This document shows, one piece after another, positions 9,830 to 49,691 of a stretch of DNA of 49,691 nt; the stretch's first letter is position 1; every line of letters starts with the position of its first letter. The DNA lies in IMG/VR virus record IMGVR_UViG_3300042554_000720, positions 1 to 49,691 of that record; one strand, written 5' to 3'. This DNA comes from a virus. The notes beneath the pieces were generated by a model, which was not told the origin of the DNA, made no database searches, and saw only the letters and a program-made list of their open reading frames with translations. A program made the position numbers and the translations under genes.

Positions 9830-10049
9830 TGTCAAATCTCCCTACAAACTCCCAGATTTGGTTTGTAGCCTTATTCAACACCTCAATAGGTTGTTGTAAA
9901 CAATATTCTAAATTGTCATCCGTATACCTGTTTCCAGATAGACTCATTAGAGTACTGTGCTCTAAGCTCATTCGTGCAAAAATATAAGGCTGCGTGCCGA
10001 GCACAGTTGTTGACTTAAACACGTCACCTTGTTTAACAATGTGTGTCAT
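9822..10049 (-). CDS. Small beta-barrel-like hypothetical protein (paralogue 5)
   Basis: 75 residues. Opening VKQGDVFKSTTVLG, strands PYIFARMSLE and STLMSLSGN, and ending IWEFVGRFDNE follow the same layout as the proteins at 8166-8807. Start ATG overlaps the deaminase-like stop by 4 nt. It is the first of this series in transcription order. Function unknown. Confidence 0.65.
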   Translation of the reverse strand: MTHIVKQGDVFKSTTVLGTQPYIFARMSLEHSTLMSLSGNRYTDDNLEYCLQQPIEVLNKATNQIWEFVGRFDNE

Positions 10050-10351
10050 GTGTGTCTCACTTTACTAATAGAGGCCAGTTTCAGCACATGCTGACAACAT
10101 AGGCATGGTTTTGCATTCATTGGTTTGCCTTCACCATTATATCGGGAGACAAACATGGAGTCCACTTTAGACCAGTCGCATTTTAGCAACGCGGCAACTT
10201 CAGCGTGCAAGAATATGCGGGAGGGTTGCCCTACAGCCTTCGCCGCTTTAGACATAAGCGGGTGGGTCTTAGTGTAGGAGTTTTGTCCAACAGAGAGAAT
10301 GCGGCCCCTCTTGTCATAACACACAGCAGTGATGGTGGGCCGCTTGCTCAT
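10046..10351 (-). CDS. Cytidine/dCMP deaminase-like protein, minimal
   Basis: 101 residues. It keeps the two zinc motifs of the deaminase superfamily: H49-A-E51 (LHAEVAAL) and P82-C83-x2-C86 (PCLCC). It is shorter than dCMP deaminases (about 150-190 residues) and lacks much of the fold beyond the second motif, so activity is uncertain. A dCMP-to-dUMP step would feed ThyX, giving it a clear metabolic place. Relation to RNA- or base-modifying deaminases cannot be excluded. Confidence 0.7.
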   Translation of the reverse strand: MSKRPTITAVCYDKRGRILSVGQNSYTKTHPLMSKAAKAVGQPSRIFLHAEVAALLKCDWSKVDSMFVSRYNGEGKPMNAKPCLCCQHVLKLASISKVRHT

Positions 10352-10704: not shown

Positions 10705-11838
10705 TTAAAACACCTTCTTGTAGAACTCCATGACGCTAACCTTGTCATCCTCGTTCAGCTTCTGAACAAAGGCAACGCTAAAGCCGTCTTGGATGCCATA
10801 GCGCTGCATCTTGCGACCCCAGTTGATGAGGGTACGCGGACTCATGGTGAGGCCCAGCTTGCCGCTGTTGTAGGCATTCCGCACCATCGTAGCGAGCTTC
10901 ACCATGTTGGCAGCAACTTCCTTGGGAGCGCCAGTCTTACCAGTAATGATGGCAATCTCGTGCTTGGCATCAAGATAGGTCAGATGCACAGTGGAAGTGA
11001 AGCGGTCAATGGTGGCCGTGTTCTGGACACCTACGCCAGTGAATGCACCACTCGTATCGCCCTGGCCCACCGTGTTACCGGCGAACACCAGCCGGAAATT
11101 GTCAGCAGGCGTCACAGTCCGTTCCTCGGACGTACCCGGCTTCTCCTTCAGGTAGAGATAGCCGCCATCTTCCAACAGGTTCTGCATACCCATTGCAATC
11201 TCAGCAGGCATCAGTTCCCACTCGTCAACAAGGCACACAGCACCACTCTTGCAAGCCTCGGTGATGGCACCGTCGCGCCAGATGGTAGCGCCACCTTCCA
11301 CCACAAGAGTGCCGAACAGTGCCGAACTCTCCACATCACCACTCATGTTGATGCGGATGAAGGGCCAGTTCAGCTTGGCGCACACATACTTCACCAGCGA
11401 ACTCTTACCGCTACCAGTTGGGCCGGTGATGAGGGACTTATCGCCGTCCATGATGCCAGCAACCAGCACAGCAGCTTCTTCCTTCTGCACCACGTAGTCG
11501 GGGTCAACAGACGGCACCATGCGCTGCACGTCAGGGGACAGGCCAGACAACACCTTCACACCAAAGTCGCCAAACTTCGGAGTGTAGCCAAACACCTTGG
11601 AAAAAGGAACTTCGTCCTTACCAATAACAAACACCTTCTTAACTTCAAGGATCGGCTCTGCGACAGGAGCAGCAGGAATAGAAGCAGCCGAGCCCTTGTT
11701 CAGTTGGGCCTTGAGGTTCTTGATGAGTTCGCTCGAAACGTCGGTGGTCATAGTGGTTCCTGATGAAGAGAATGATTTAGTACGGACAGAGTGTTTGATG
11801 GAGGCACTATAGCCCGTTTCCCAGGGCTTAGTTTTCAT
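10705..11838 (-). CDS. CobS-like / MoxR-type AAA+ ATPase
   Basis: 377 residues if started at ATG 11838, which overlaps the VWA gene's stop by 4 nt. ATG 11751 (348 residues) has a better ribosome site (AGGA, 6 nt) and may be the true start. Walker A is G139PTGSGKSS; Walker B VCLVDE (D205, E206); sensor 1 GNT near 255; a likely arginine finger in IDRF (R279). This is the MoxR/CobS clade. Such ATPases work with a VWA protein, here the next gene upstream, to remodel a metal-bound partner. CobS proper needs CobN and CobT for cobalt insertion; CobN is absent, so the target is unknown. Confidence 0.85.
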   Translation of the reverse strand: MKTKPWETGYSASIKHSVRTKSFSSSGTTMTTDVSSELIKNLKAQLNKGSAASIPAAPVAEPILEVKKVFVIGKDEVPFSKVFGYTPKFGDFGVKVLSGLSPDVQRMVPSVDPDYVVQKEEAAVLVAGIMDGDKSLITGPTGSGKSSLVKYVCAKLNWPFIRINMSGDVESSALFGTLVVEGGATIWRDGAITEACKSGAVCLVDEWELMPAEIAMGMQNLLEDGGYLYLKEKPGTSEERTVTPADNFRLVFAGNTVGQGDTSGAFTGVGVQNTATIDRFTSTVHLTYLDAKHEIAIITGKTGAPKEVAANMVKLATMVRNAYNSGKLGLTMSPRTLINWGRKMQRYGIQDGFSVAFVQKLNEDDKVSVMEFYKKVF

Positions 11839-13574
11839 AGCGCCTTATCAATAATGGACAGAATTGCAGGGGCTAGGGCATTAGTGTCGTGAATAACTAC
11901 GTTGTTCTTGTAGTACCTCTTAACGTTGGTGTCCATAATGCCAATGCCGTAGAGTTCAACTAGTTTCTTGTCTTCAATGGAGGTAGTCACTTTCTTGGTG
12001 TACGAGGAAATGTCGCCTGCCCACGAGCGGCCCGCAGGGGAACCATCACTGAGCACGATGAGGATTTTACGCTTCTCCTTTCGGGGAACAAGGTAGTTGT
12101 GCGCCCAAGCCACAGCGTCGCCGTCGCTGTTGTTCCACAGCGCACTAGAGGCAACGCCAAACCGCTTGACAAGCTCGGATTGTGTCACATTCTCTTGCCA
12201 ATCATTGAACACCCACACAATGGGGTCTTCGTTCCTTTCACAATCGTTGGTGAAACCCAGCACATTGTAGGAAATGTGCAGTGGCTTGAGGGCGAGGGCC
12301 AGTGCAGCAGCAGATGCACACGCAGTTTCAAACTTACTGCCCGACATAGACCCTGAACAGTCTACTAGTAAACTTACCGCCGTGTCCAGGGTGTCGCTCG
12401 TGACATGGCGACGAAATACGCGGGATTCTGCCTCAGTGCCTCTCGCAGACACCAATCGGTGAAGAGAACCAGTGTGCAGCTTACCAGATTTTGTACCATA
12501 TTCATACCTTCCTTTGCTACGTACTTGCAGCTTGATGCGCAGCTTGTTGGACAGAGGCTTTGCGTTATCGTCAATGACGGAGTTAACCCGGCCAGTGTTG
12601 AAGTAGCCAATGCCACCACCACCCGGGACACTGCCCTTCAGCGGCCAGCGAAACACCTTGTAATCGCGGGCAGCAGGGACAGAGTAGGAGCCTCGGCCCA
12701 CATCGTGCTTCCAATGAATGCCAGTGCGGGAGGGCTTGAAGTGATCGGCACCCATTTCCTTAGCCAAAGCATCAACAGTGATGAGTCGATCCTTACTGTC
12801 AGTGCCTTCAGCTTCGCCGTCTTTGCCTTCACTGTCTCCTTCGCCTTCGCCCTTACCCTCTCCCTTGTCAGTGCCCTTGCCTTTGCCTTTTCCTCCTTTA
12901 TCTCCAGGCTTCTGCTGATATTTCGCAGCATCTTCGCCGTAAATGTCAGTAAGGATGTCCTTAGCCAATGCCAGCAAATCGTCAGTGGCGCCATTGTCAC
13001 TGGTGCGCAGAGCTTCCAGGCGAGTGCCATAGTTGCCTGCCATCAGCTTTTTATAGCGTTCCTTACCAATAAGGTCCAACATATCGCGGCTGAACTTACC
13101 AGTGTTGGTCCACTCGCCGATCCAGGCGCGGTGCTCACTCTCCCATGCAAACAACGGAGCCAGCAGCTTTTGGTCTTCGCTGGCAGCTCCAGTGAGGCTT
13201 TGCAGCTTCTTCAGGTAGACACCAGCAAACTCATTGGATAACCGAACATCGCCAGCAAACTCGCTGTCGTTCAGGTAGTCGATGCGGTTGTCTTCCAGAA
13301 GGTTGCAGATGTAGTGCAGCAACCCTTGGCACCCTTGTTCGTGCCACCAGTCAAACTGGGTGTGGACGACGTGACTCGTCTCGTGCTTGACGAAGTAGCG
13401 CAGGTTCGTCAGGTAGTCGGGCGTGTCCTTACTGGTAATGTGTGGAAGGTGTAGAGTTTTGCCATCGGTACGCGGCACAGACCCTGCTTCGTCCCACTGC
13501 ACCTTGACGCCACATCGCGCAGCGCAAGCGTGAACGTAGGCGTCAAAGTGGATGGTATCTAGGTATGTTGTCAC
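11835..13574 (-). CDS. CobT-like VWA-domain protein with N-terminal HExxH metallopeptidase-like domain
   Basis: 579 residues from a GTG start. Residues 64-68 are HETSH, followed at 91-99 by NLLEDNRID, an arrangement like a gluzincin zinc site. A Gly/Lys/Glu low-complexity linker spans about 222-262. The C-terminal VWA domain has the MIDAS motif D405-C-S407-G-S409. Together with the following MoxR/CobS-like ATPase it forms an ATPase/VWA pair; family knowledge says such pairs act as chaperones for metal insertion or complex activation. Whether it cleaves protein is untested. Confidence 0.85.
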   Translation of the reverse strand: MTTYLDTIHFDAYVHACAARCGVKVQWDEAGSVPRTDGKTLHLPHITSKDTPDYLTNLRYFVKHETSHVVHTQFDWWHEQGCQGLLHYICNLLEDNRIDYLNDSEFAGDVRLSNEFAGVYLKKLQSLTGAASEDQKLLAPLFAWESEHRAWIGEWTNTGKFSRDMLDLIGKERYKKLMAGNYGTRLEALRTSDNGATDDLLALAKDILTDIYGEDAAKYQQKPGDKGGKGKGKGTDKGEGKGEGEGDSEGKDGEAEGTDSKDRLITVDALAKEMGADHFKPSRTGIHWKHDVGRGSYSVPAARDYKVFRWPLKGSVPGGGGIGYFNTGRVNSVIDDNAKPLSNKLRIKLQVRSKGRYEYGTKSGKLHTGSLHRLVSARGTEAESRVFRRHVTSDTLDTAVSLLVDCSGSMSGSKFETACASAAALALALKPLHISYNVLGFTNDCERNEDPIVWVFNDWQENVTQSELVKRFGVASSALWNNSDGDAVAWAHNYLVPRKEKRKILIVLSDGSPAGRSWAGDISSYTKKVTTSIEDKKLVELYGIGIMDTNVKRYYKNNVVIHDTNALAPAILSIIDKAL

Positions 13575-46281: not shown

Positions 46282-46469
46282 TTTTCGTCACCTCGTAGAA
46301 TTGCTGGCACCTTGCGCTTGGCCTCTAGCTGGTCTGCATACTCTTCTAGAAGTTTTGCAAACCCAGCTTGTACCAATGCTTCCATTTCGCGGGGAGTGAT
46401 GTCTTCCAGCATAACATCAGCACCGCCATCTTCATGTTCAATGATGGTTGTAACTTTCATAGTTCGCAA
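46278..46469 (-). CDS. Small hypothetical protein after the reductase
   Basis: 63 residues. Beta-hairpin-like start (MKVTTIIEHEDGGADVMLED) and a C-terminal helix (EALVQAGFAKLLEEYADQLEAKR, interrupted by charged residues). Overlaps nrdJ by 13 nt. Translation from MKVTT (46460) is also possible. Function unknown. Confidence 0.65.
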   Translation of the reverse strand: MRTMKVTTIIEHEDGGADVMLEDITPREMEALVQAGFAKLLEEYADQLEAKRKVPAILRGDEK

Positions 46470-48358
46470 ACTCCCGCCACACAGGCTAGTTGTTGAGCAC
46501 CCTCTACATTGTCATCCTTCTCCTTAAAAGAGTTCCAGTCAAGGGAGGTTGGCATGGTCAATTGTAGCTTAGTGTACGTCTCTTTGTCAATCTCTTCATA
46601 CGGCGCTTGTTTGTAACTACCACCGTCCCAAGGTAGGAAACTCACACCACTAATCTCGTCAAAGTGCTTCCACACCCAAGCACCTACTTCAGGCCAGTCT
46701 GCCTCCTTCACATACACAGTGACTGAGGGCTTGTGCTCGCACCAGTGTCGCTGATAGACAAGCCAGAGACGTAGATGCTCCAGGGAGGATAGGTCATCCC
46801 GTACAACACAACCATCTGGACTCTTCATTGGGAAGCTAAACACAGTGGTGTCTAGCGGCTTCATTACGTCAGGTTCAGCCGGTACTCCTGCCTCCTTCAG
46901 AAACGCTGTAATAGGGTCTTTATTGTCGTTGCGAACACGTCGAATGTAGTAAGCAGAATGACGAGCATGAATCCCGCTAGCGCTATCAACCAACTGACTA
47001 ACAGTACCAGAGGGCTTAACGCAAGTAATGGCAGCGGATGCAGGGATGCCCAACTCTCCTGCAAAGAGTTTATTTGCGTCCACAGCCACACCACGAAGCT
47101 GTTCAAGGATTCCTGGCAGTTCGCTAGAATTTGCATTATTGATAAGAGGGCAGTCTAGAATACCAGTGATTGAGACGCCAAGCAGGCGCTCCTCTTCCGT
47201 ATTCTTCTGCCACACCTTTCGTAGGTAGGGGAAGTCTGTCAGTGTAGATTGAAAGGTTCCAAGGATAGTGGCCAGTCGCACCTTTCGCTCCAAATCACTT
47301 CGGGTGTCAGTTGATCGGGCAACCACCTCAGAAAGGTTACAGAATTGATATGGGCGCAGGATGATTTCGGAGCAAGGGTTAGTTCCAAACTCAAAGTTCG
47401 TGTCTCGCCGCCCGTTCCTTGCAACTTGAAGTTTAGCAGCTTCTCGGTTGAAGATTCCTCGCTCTCCACTGTAAGATTGGTACAGTGAAAGCCACTCAGA
47501 CATAAACTCACCCACTGTTGGCTTGACATTATATGTCGCGCTATTGTTAGCAAGTGCTCGCTGTCCTTCTCGCTCCCACCACTGTCCAGACTTAGCATGG
47601 CGCATCCTATCGTCGTTGAGGTCACTGAGGCTAATCATAGCGGAGCGGCGTACACCGCCCACCACAACAACCTCACCTACTTTACACATAATGTCGTGAC
47701 ACTCTAGAGAGGTAAGGCGACGACCTGCTGCCCCTTTGAACTTACTAATAGTGAATTTGAAGAGGTCAACCAGAGGCTCAGGTCCGCTGGCTCGTCCGCC
47801 AAAAGTACGGAGTCGAGCGCCAGCAGCACGCACCCTAGAGACATCCCACTTTGGAATTTCTCCTGCATATAGGAGGGCGATGAGTTGTCGTAGGGCTTTG
47901 GCCCAACCTGCCTTACTGTCAGCCACGACGATAGTAGTAGCGGAGTCAAACAGTGTTGTCGGAACTTCTGGTAGTTTGTTGACATACTTACTCTCCACTG
48001 AGAACCCAACGCCAGTACCACACAGCAAAATGTACATGGCTTCGTCAAATGATTTAACATCATCTACAGGCAGGTAGGAGCAGTTGTACCCTGCTACGTT
48101 GTCGCGTTCTAGAGCAGGGCCAGCAGTCATCATAGCCCGCATAGAGGGCATAACCTCACGATGCACAATGGCTGCTTCCAACTCAATGCGAAGTTCAGCA
48201 GGCATGTGATAGTCGTGCTTATTGATAAGGTGTTCATCCATGAACGCCATGTAACGGTTCACCGTCTCGTGCCAGTGCTCACGACGACCCTTATCTTCTA
48301 GGAAACGGGAATACCTACTCTTAGCAATAAAACTCTCATACAGCGGCAATTCAGTCAT
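46457..48358 (-). CDS. nrdJ: Class II adenosylcobalamin-dependent ribonucleotide reductase
   Basis: 633 residues. It is a monomeric RTPR-like enzyme: NPCSEIILRPYQFCNLSEV supplies the radical Cys/Glu region, LTSLECHDI and the C-terminal ACVAGVCEL the redox cysteines. Class II enzymes use B12 to form the radical and work with or without oxygen. It makes dNTPs for phage synthesis. There is no NrdB or separate activase. The CobS/CobT-like pair in the same operon gives an interesting but unproven link to cobalamin. Confidence 0.9.
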   Translation of the reverse strand: MTELPLYESFIAKSRYSRFLEDKGRREHWHETVNRYMAFMDEHLINKHDYHMPAELRIELEAAIVHREVMPSMRAMMTAGPALERDNVAGYNCSYLPVDDVKSFDEAMYILLCGTGVGFSVESKYVNKLPEVPTTLFDSATTIVVADSKAGWAKALRQLIALLYAGEIPKWDVSRVRAAGARLRTFGGRASGPEPLVDLFKFTISKFKGAAGRRLTSLECHDIMCKVGEVVVVGGVRRSAMISLSDLNDDRMRHAKSGQWWEREGQRALANNSATYNVKPTVGEFMSEWLSLYQSYSGERGIFNREAAKLQVARNGRRDTNFEFGTNPCSEIILRPYQFCNLSEVVARSTDTRSDLERKVRLATILGTFQSTLTDFPYLRKVWQKNTEEERLLGVSITGILDCPLINNANSSELPGILEQLRGVAVDANKLFAGELGIPASAAITCVKPSGTVSQLVDSASGIHARHSAYYIRRVRNDNKDPITAFLKEAGVPAEPDVMKPLDTTVFSFPMKSPDGCVVRDDLSSLEHLRLWLVYQRHWCEHKPSVTVYVKEADWPEVGAWVWKHFDEISGVSFLPWDGGSYKQAPYEEIDKETYTKLQLTMPTSLDWNSFKEKDDNVEGAQQLACVAGVCEL

Positions 48359-49279: not shown

Positions 49280-49691
49280 TTACAAGTGCTCCATAGCTAA
49301 TTGGAAATAGTCGTTTCACTTCCTTACTAATAAGGGAAGCAACCTCTCGTGTCTCAAGTTGAGTGCCATTACCAGTACGCAGTTTTACAAAGTGCAGCCA
49401 GCTTCGCAAAGTACCGTTCATGTACATGCGGCTCATCGTAAGACCCTCAGGCAGTACAGCACGCGCCACTTCTTTAGCAATGCCGCTATCCAGTGCCCAT
49501 TTGTACAGACGCAAGGCATCTTGCCGCAACACATCTTGTTGGTACGCCCACTTCTCTGCAAGATCAGAGTCTACGCAGGGAAGACTACTCTGCCTGTTTT
49601 TAGTATCTTGTAAACGGGCATCACGAATAGGGGCTGCGGGTAGTTTATCAATACTGGCGTATCTTTGGCTAAACTCTTGGAAGGTAAAGCT
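49272..49691 (-). CDS. thyX: ThyX, C-terminal part (continues the gene cut at position 1)
   Basis: The last 140 codons as displayed; bases 49565-49691 duplicate 1-127, so the non-redundant part is 49272-49564. The C-terminal conserved region is present: AKEVARAVLPEGLTMSRMY, then NGTLRSWLHFVKLRTGNGTQ and ETREVA, which carry the folate- and FAD-contacting arginines. Together with the part at 1-358 the gene encodes 216 residues. Confidence 0.92.
   Translation of the reverse strand, partial: SFTFQEFSQRYASIDKLPAAPIRDARLQDTKNRQSSLPCVDSDLAEKWAYQQDVLRQDALRLYKWALDSGIAKEVARAVLPEGLTMSRMYMNGTLRSWLHFVKLRTGNGTQLETREVASLISKEVKRLFPISYGALVNG
49565..49691. repeat. 127-bp exact repeat of positions 1-127 (assembly overlap)
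   Basis: The last 127 bases equal the first 127. The reading frame of thyX continues through it, and 127 is a common assembler k-mer length. This marks a circular contig rather than a biological terminal repeat; true ends cannot be told from this. Confidence 0.85.

Follow-up and report, generated by a model that had tools for sequence, protein, structure and literature searches.

A CobS/CobT-like gene pair of viruses with a conserved HExxH...D site and a predicted zincin-like domain in its VWA partner

The gene pair and its genomic setting

The window, that is, the whole stretch of 49,691 nucleotides analysed here (IMG/VR record IMGVR_UViG_3300042554_000720), carries an exact direct terminal repeat of 127 bp (1-127 and 49565-49691) and therefore probably represents a complete genome of ~49.6 kb. 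The reading frame of ThyX (Thy1) spans the terminal-repeat junction region. In gene order the phage resembles Vibrio phage ICP2 (Zobellviridae), to whose DNA polymerase its own scores 35%, and gp41-gp42 of ICP2 are the same pair as the one studied here, at the same place. In agreement with the initial annotation, which had described a CobS/MoxR-type ATPase and a VWA protein with HETSH and NLLEDNRID as a gene pair, both open reading frames were found at the positions given in Table 1. The CobT-like gene lies upstream and the ATPase gene downstream, both on the minus strand, and the overlap of the stop codon of the first with the start codon of the second, as ATGA, suggests translational coupling.

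Table 1. Features of the gene pair and of its context in the window
Feature	Position	Strand	Evidence
CobT-like protein, 579 aa, GTG start: zincin-like N-terminal domain, charged linker, C-terminal VWA	11835..13574	-	CobT_C 2.8e-29; phrog_17276 across residues 17-576; AlphaFold model
N-terminal domain, aa 1-216, predicted to adopt a zincin-like fold	12927..13574	-	pLDDT 95.7, pTM 0.90; structural neighbours
HExxH motif HETSH, aa 64-68, with predicted metal-binding and catalytic function, within helix 52-71	13371..13385	-	H64 56/58, E65 58/58, H68 56/58
NLLEDNRID, aa 91-99, within helix 84-105; contains D95, the best candidate third metal ligand	13278..13304	-	D95 57/58
Low-complexity charged linker, about aa 213-300	12675..12938	-	pLDDT <50 at residues 224-293; sequence
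VWA domain, aa 386-579, MIDAS motif DCSGSM at aa 405-410	11838..12419	-	CobT_C match; NorD best PDB match
CobS-like MoxR-clade AAA+ ATPase, 377 aa	10705..11838	-	AAA_5, CbbQ_C, phrog_249; motifs
Overlap of cobT stop and cobS start (ATGA)	11835..11838	-	sequence
dCMP-deaminase-like gene directly downstream of the pair (context only)	10046..10351	-	phrog_174 8e-12; PF00383 8.1e-6
NrdJ, B12-dependent ribonucleotide reductase (context only)	46457..48358	-	phrog_367 1.5e-183

The ATPase matched AAA_5 (2.4e-20), CbbQ_C (6.9e-9) and phrog_249, labelled 'porphyrin biosynthesis' (6.5e-62), and its motifs are intact: Walker A (GPTGSGKS), Walker B (LVDE), GQGDTSG...DRF and sensor-2 (SPRT). A CobS homologue adjoins the CobT-like gene in 78 of the 80 IMG/VR loci. 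In the partner protein, D405, S407 and S409 of the MIDAS are invariant in the viral alignment. Among the Foldseek matches listed, which did not include 9uka and its relatives, the best PDB match of the VWA domain was NorD of NorQD (E 1.1e-9), followed by the MIDAS domain of midasin. The genes thus show the features of a MoxR AAA+/VWA pair, in that the ATPase retains its Walker A, Walker B and Arg finger and the neighbouring VWA protein has a MIDAS.

In most of the annotated records, a gene for a replicative polymerase, primase, helicase or clamp lies no more than about 5 kb from the pair, and this proximity suggests that the pair acts in replication or close to it. In the archaeal virus HCTV-5, an annotated SprT protein, a member of a zincin family (L094:1965-2627), lies a few genes from the CobS-like ATPase and VWA gene.

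A conserved HExxH...D site in the N-terminal domain

The AlphaFold model of the N-terminal domain, for which the input was alignment A2 (the window protein aligned exclusively with IMG/VR loci), was of high confidence and placed the HExxH and the NxxED motifs in two separate helices (Table 1). Foldseek returned no significant E-values for this model; its most probable match was the minigluzincin selecase (probability 0.80), and jannalysin and ArdC were also listed. The neighbours obtained with VIA-align were jannalysin (Z 5.0; 3.7 A, 95 residues), selecase (4.8), BlaR1 (4.3), ArdC (4.1), abylysin (4.0) and SPRTN (3.7), and HExxH peptidases or zincins accounted for 12 of the best 16, all with a Z of 5.0 or less. 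Scores this low prove no family by themselves, so the domain is read as zincin-like because such neighbours coincide with an invariant motif. A profile search of the PDB found no solved peptidase matching the N-terminal domain by sequence, and the Pfam search found, at E up to 1, no match of the pair to DUF2201_N (PF13203), a domain of metallopeptidase-VWA proteins.

Two of the matches bear on the idea that the pair encodes a protease for counter-defence or host takeover, whose zincin domain would act against a defence or replication protein of the host. One of the better structural neighbours, ArdC, is an antirestriction zincin, and the A2 profile weakly matched the anti-CRISPR protein AcrIIA26 (PDB 9zq6_B; E 0.0046) over 46 residues around NFVEDNFIE. 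This match spans the NLLEDxxIE helix and leaves the HExxH part uncovered; a helix of this type may have been reused in AcrIIA26. However, the PADLOC defence search on the pair gave generic ATPase matches and no specific one. A housekeeping role in replication also fits better with the location of the pair beside replication genes and with the near-universal presence of cobS in myocyanophages (PMC9983427). We therefore regard a counter-defence function as very improbable.

To evaluate the conservation of the motif, relatives were gathered from 80 IMG/VR loci, ten GenBank phages, one being a fragment, and six more distant records. A single-sequence scan found no close relatives in IMG/VR, and an alignment-based search was required. 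Of the 70 IMG/VR loci whose N-terminus is complete, 69 have HExxH. Among 58 non-redundant relatives, N91 is kept in 55 and E94 in 53, in addition to the four residues for which counts are given in Table 1, and in alignments A2 and A3 (37 and 35 viral sequences, respectively) H64, E65, H68 and D95 are the sole invariant residues of the N-terminal domain. The site persists in proteins that are 18-25% identical to that of the window: those of the archaeal virus HCTV-5 (HECGH) and of phages of Gordonia (HELCH), Bacteroides (HEGCH) and Microcystis (HETLH), and gp150 of cyanophage syn9 (HEVGH). Because it is kept across such divergent viruses, HETSH is not a chance match, and conservation of this extent in the alignments points to selection on a metal site and a general base. 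Two sequence features of zincins are therefore present, namely, a conserved HExxH in a helix and a conserved acidic residue, the putative ligand D95, in the helix that follows.

A few viral members do not have the site, namely nickie, BUCTxx99, an Acinetobacter phage-plasmid and the locus L091, which implies either that the machine can exist without it or that these members have changed function or are decaying. In the Acinetobacter phage-plasmid (L098:2864-4785), the annotation splits the CobT-like gene into two overlapping frames, and with QEVAK in place of the site this is perhaps a decaying copy. E65 remains even in sequences that have lost both histidines, and hence it may serve a structural purpose as well.

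Not all HExxH domains are proteolytic, and the pair could be a pure chaperone that remodels a metalloprotein or an assembly complex, like NorQD, CbbQO and RavA-ViaA, in which case the metal of the HExxH...D site would serve for structure or for client delivery. The persistence of a few members without the site is consistent with this idea, as are the resemblance of the VWA domain to NorD among the matches listed and the fact that those MoxR/VWA pairs whose function is known act as remodelling chaperones (PMC7159879). In contrast, E65, which in zincins acts as the general base rather than as a metal ligand, is kept without exception in the 58 relatives, and a metal site of purely structural function could do without it. 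We consider a chaperone devoid of proteolysis unlikely, although it deserves some weight. Among the proposals of the initial annotation, a chaperone or protease machine unrelated to cobalamin fits the data best, given a domain predicted with high confidence, structural neighbours that are mainly zincins, and putative ligands and general base that are the only invariant residues.

Relationship to cobaltochelatase and to NrdJ

It has been suggested that viral CobS and CobT join the CobN of the host to form a cobaltochelatase (PMC8651126), which would yield more cobalamin and feed B12-dependent enzymes such as NrdJ; the initial annotation had likewise considered cobalamin loading through host CobN. 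The homology to CobS and CobT is clear over the whole length of both proteins. The profile of the viral proteins aligned full-length to the CobT of PDB 9uka, with HEvaH opposite residues that do not form the motif. Moreover, Pfam CobT (PF06213), which corresponds to the N-terminal domain of CobT, covers the HExxH domain of the SSU5 protein (2.1e-37) and is above the cut-off in four further viral proteins with an intact site (L069, L085, L057 and L009), indicating that the viral HExxH domain and the N-terminal domain of CobT are homologous.

The H-E-H-D set conserved by the viruses is, however, missing from true CobT. It was absent in all 42 chromosomal alphaproteobacterial CobTs analysed, of which 41 have E94 and none has D95. 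The loss of D95 together with the histidines, while E94 stays, suggests from the alignment that D95 is the likely third ligand. In an unrooted quick-search tree with long branches, the cobaltochelatases form one group among the intact-site viral proteins (support 89). The simplest reading is that the site was lost once on the way to cobaltochelatase, with separate losses in nickie and the Acinetobacter plasmid, in BUCTxx99 and in some bacterial relatives; given the nature of the tree, a loss in CobT leans on parsimony and on the zincin-like fold rather than on a root. Judging from these sequences, the N-terminal domain would be a dead zincin in cobaltochelatase and an apparently live one in viruses, from archaeal viruses to cyanophages. 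Two kinds of cellular relatives were also observed. A CobT relative of Vibrio splendidus (L111:3325-5043) has a broken site and neighbours the cobaltochelatases in the tree, and Terrilactibacillus (Bacillota; L106:3735-5627 and L107) has a chromosomal MoxR and VWA pair with a degenerate site; CobN was not found in either genome.

The equivalog models for the true enzymes were missed by hundreds of bits: the CobT-like protein reached 92.1 bits against a cut-off of 759.05 for TIGR01651, and the ATPase 148 bits against 558.55 for TIGR01650. As the initial annotation had noted, CobN is missing from the phage, since a profile search found none in the window, and the same was true of 51 viral relatives. 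On the host side, CobN was found in none of the 119 genomes of Enterobacteriaceae, the host family of SSU5-type carriers, and in 6 of the 80 genomes of Vibrio, the host group of ICP2, leaving 74 without it. It was not found in the relative-bearing genomes of Buttiauxella and Kluyvera either, although some genomes of alphaproteobacteria and Burkholderia in which a relative occurs do have it. Relatives also occur on 956 plasmid records, mostly of Klebsiella, E. coli, Acinetobacter and Enterobacter. The absence of CobN in most host groups of the carriers implies that the recruitment of host CobN cannot be the general function of the pair.

We also examined the association with NrdJ, which the initial annotation had placed in the same operon as the pair. 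On the linear map, the two are ~33 kb apart. Given the direct terminal repeat, the circular distance applies, and NrdJ lies ~12 kb downstream on the circle, within the same minus-strand block; the primase, helicase and polymerase genes and many others lie in between. The block is thus common to both, but they do not form an adjacent operon. Co-occurrence, the proposed check on this association, turned out to be loose: a strong NrdJ match (E 1e-30 or better) was obtained in 18 of 51 CobT-bearing records, including several relatives of the window phage, whereas only one of 24 NrdJ-bearing records has a CobT-like gene, with a weak match. ICP2 and SSU5, which have the pair, gave no NrdJ match, and neither did the CobT-bearing CRP-810. 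An obligate link to NrdJ is ruled out by the single NrdJ record with a CobT-like gene and by the pair of ICP2 and SSU5. NrdJ is also present in cobaviruses, whose published description makes no mention of CobS or CobT (PMC6775973). Although the homology, the CobN-bearing genomes and the 18 records with NrdJ are in favour of a viral cobaltochelatase, the intact-site pair in CobN-poor hosts, the missed cut-offs, the rarity of the pair among NrdJ records and the absence of the site from true CobT make this function quite improbable.

A proposed remodelling machine and its comparison with known systems

We lean towards the view that the pair, located in the replication module, encodes an AAA+ machine of two components that remodels proteins and contains a zincin (metallopeptidase-like) domain of its own, that it is not a cobaltochelatase, and that NrdJ is carried along by the phage backbone which both share. 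It has been described that MoxR rings remodel proteins and that the VWA domain captures a peptide through its MIDAS (PMC7159879). By analogy with these families, the CobS-like protein would assemble an ATP-driven ring, on which the CobT-like VWA domain would dock and capture an extended peptide of a target protein through the MIDAS. The flexible charged linker would bear the HExxH...D domain, predicted to bind a divalent metal, probably Zn, and this domain may cut or otherwise process the engaged target. The flexible attachment of an intact zincin suggests an order of events in which the target is engaged, pulled, and then cut or processed. Given its place among the replication genes, the machine would probably act early in infection.

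The pair itself was already known, and a peptidase label had been applied to it in cyanophages and dismissed; what is new is the conserved site in the N-terminal domain, as the alignments present it. An incomplete literature search found no report of this conserved zincin site or of its loss in cobaltochelatase. The fusion of a peptidase-like domain to a VWA domain, which had been singled out as unusual, is so only in part, since HExxH, linker and VWA make up the standard architecture of viral 'CobT'. More tentatively, we propose that an AAA+/VWA metalloprotease is spread across viruses (phages, phage-plasmids, cyanophages and archaeal viruses) under the label of a cobalamin biosynthesis auxiliary gene, and that CobT is a derived member with a dead protease domain. 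Because the partner keeps a zinc-protease-like site, which is lost in the true B12 enzyme, this pair, very common among viruses, probably remodels or cuts proteins rather than serving in vitamin synthesis. Should the viral partner turn out to be an active protease, a new role would be assigned to genes that are very widespread in viruses, and it could be explained where the CobT subunit came from. Since cobS is read as a B12 gene and is so widespread in myocyanophages, a wrong functional label would skew the counts of viral auxiliary metabolism.

The closest known system is the viral CobST cluster (PMC8651126), represented by ICP2 gp41-42, SSU5, RHEph10, nickie and Druskaviridae, which has the same two genes, usually adjacent, and the same domain order; ICP2 further shares with the window phage the synteny with primase, helicase and DNA polymerase. 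In that work the cluster is considered a cobaltochelatase and the peptidase label in cyanophages a mistake, whereas we found the peptidase-like site to be conserved. The CobT of CobNST (S. meliloti CobT; PDB 9uka) is homologous over its full length, including the N-terminal domain, and has a VWA domain with a MIDAS, but it has neither HExxH nor D95 and requires CobN, which is missing in the window phage. NorQD, CbbQO and RavA-ViaA resemble the pair in having a MoxR AAA+ protein with a separate VWA partner, the VWA fold being closest to NorD among the matches listed; their VWA partners are not known to have a zincin N-terminal domain. FtsH and other AAA+ zinc proteases couple an AAA+ motor to an HExxH site with Asp as the third ligand. 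The likeness of FtsH to the window pair is limited to the way of working, as FtsH has the AAA+ and protease domains in one chain, the window pair consists of two chains from two genes that would be joined via the VWA domain, and the spacing and the fold differ. Finally, the topology predicted for the window domain, with a helix, beta strands, the HExxH helix and the ligand helix, resembles that of the minigluzincins jannalysin (4jix) and selecase (4qhi), but in the window domain the third ligand is likely the Asp of an N-x-x-E-D motif and the helical C-terminal part is longer.
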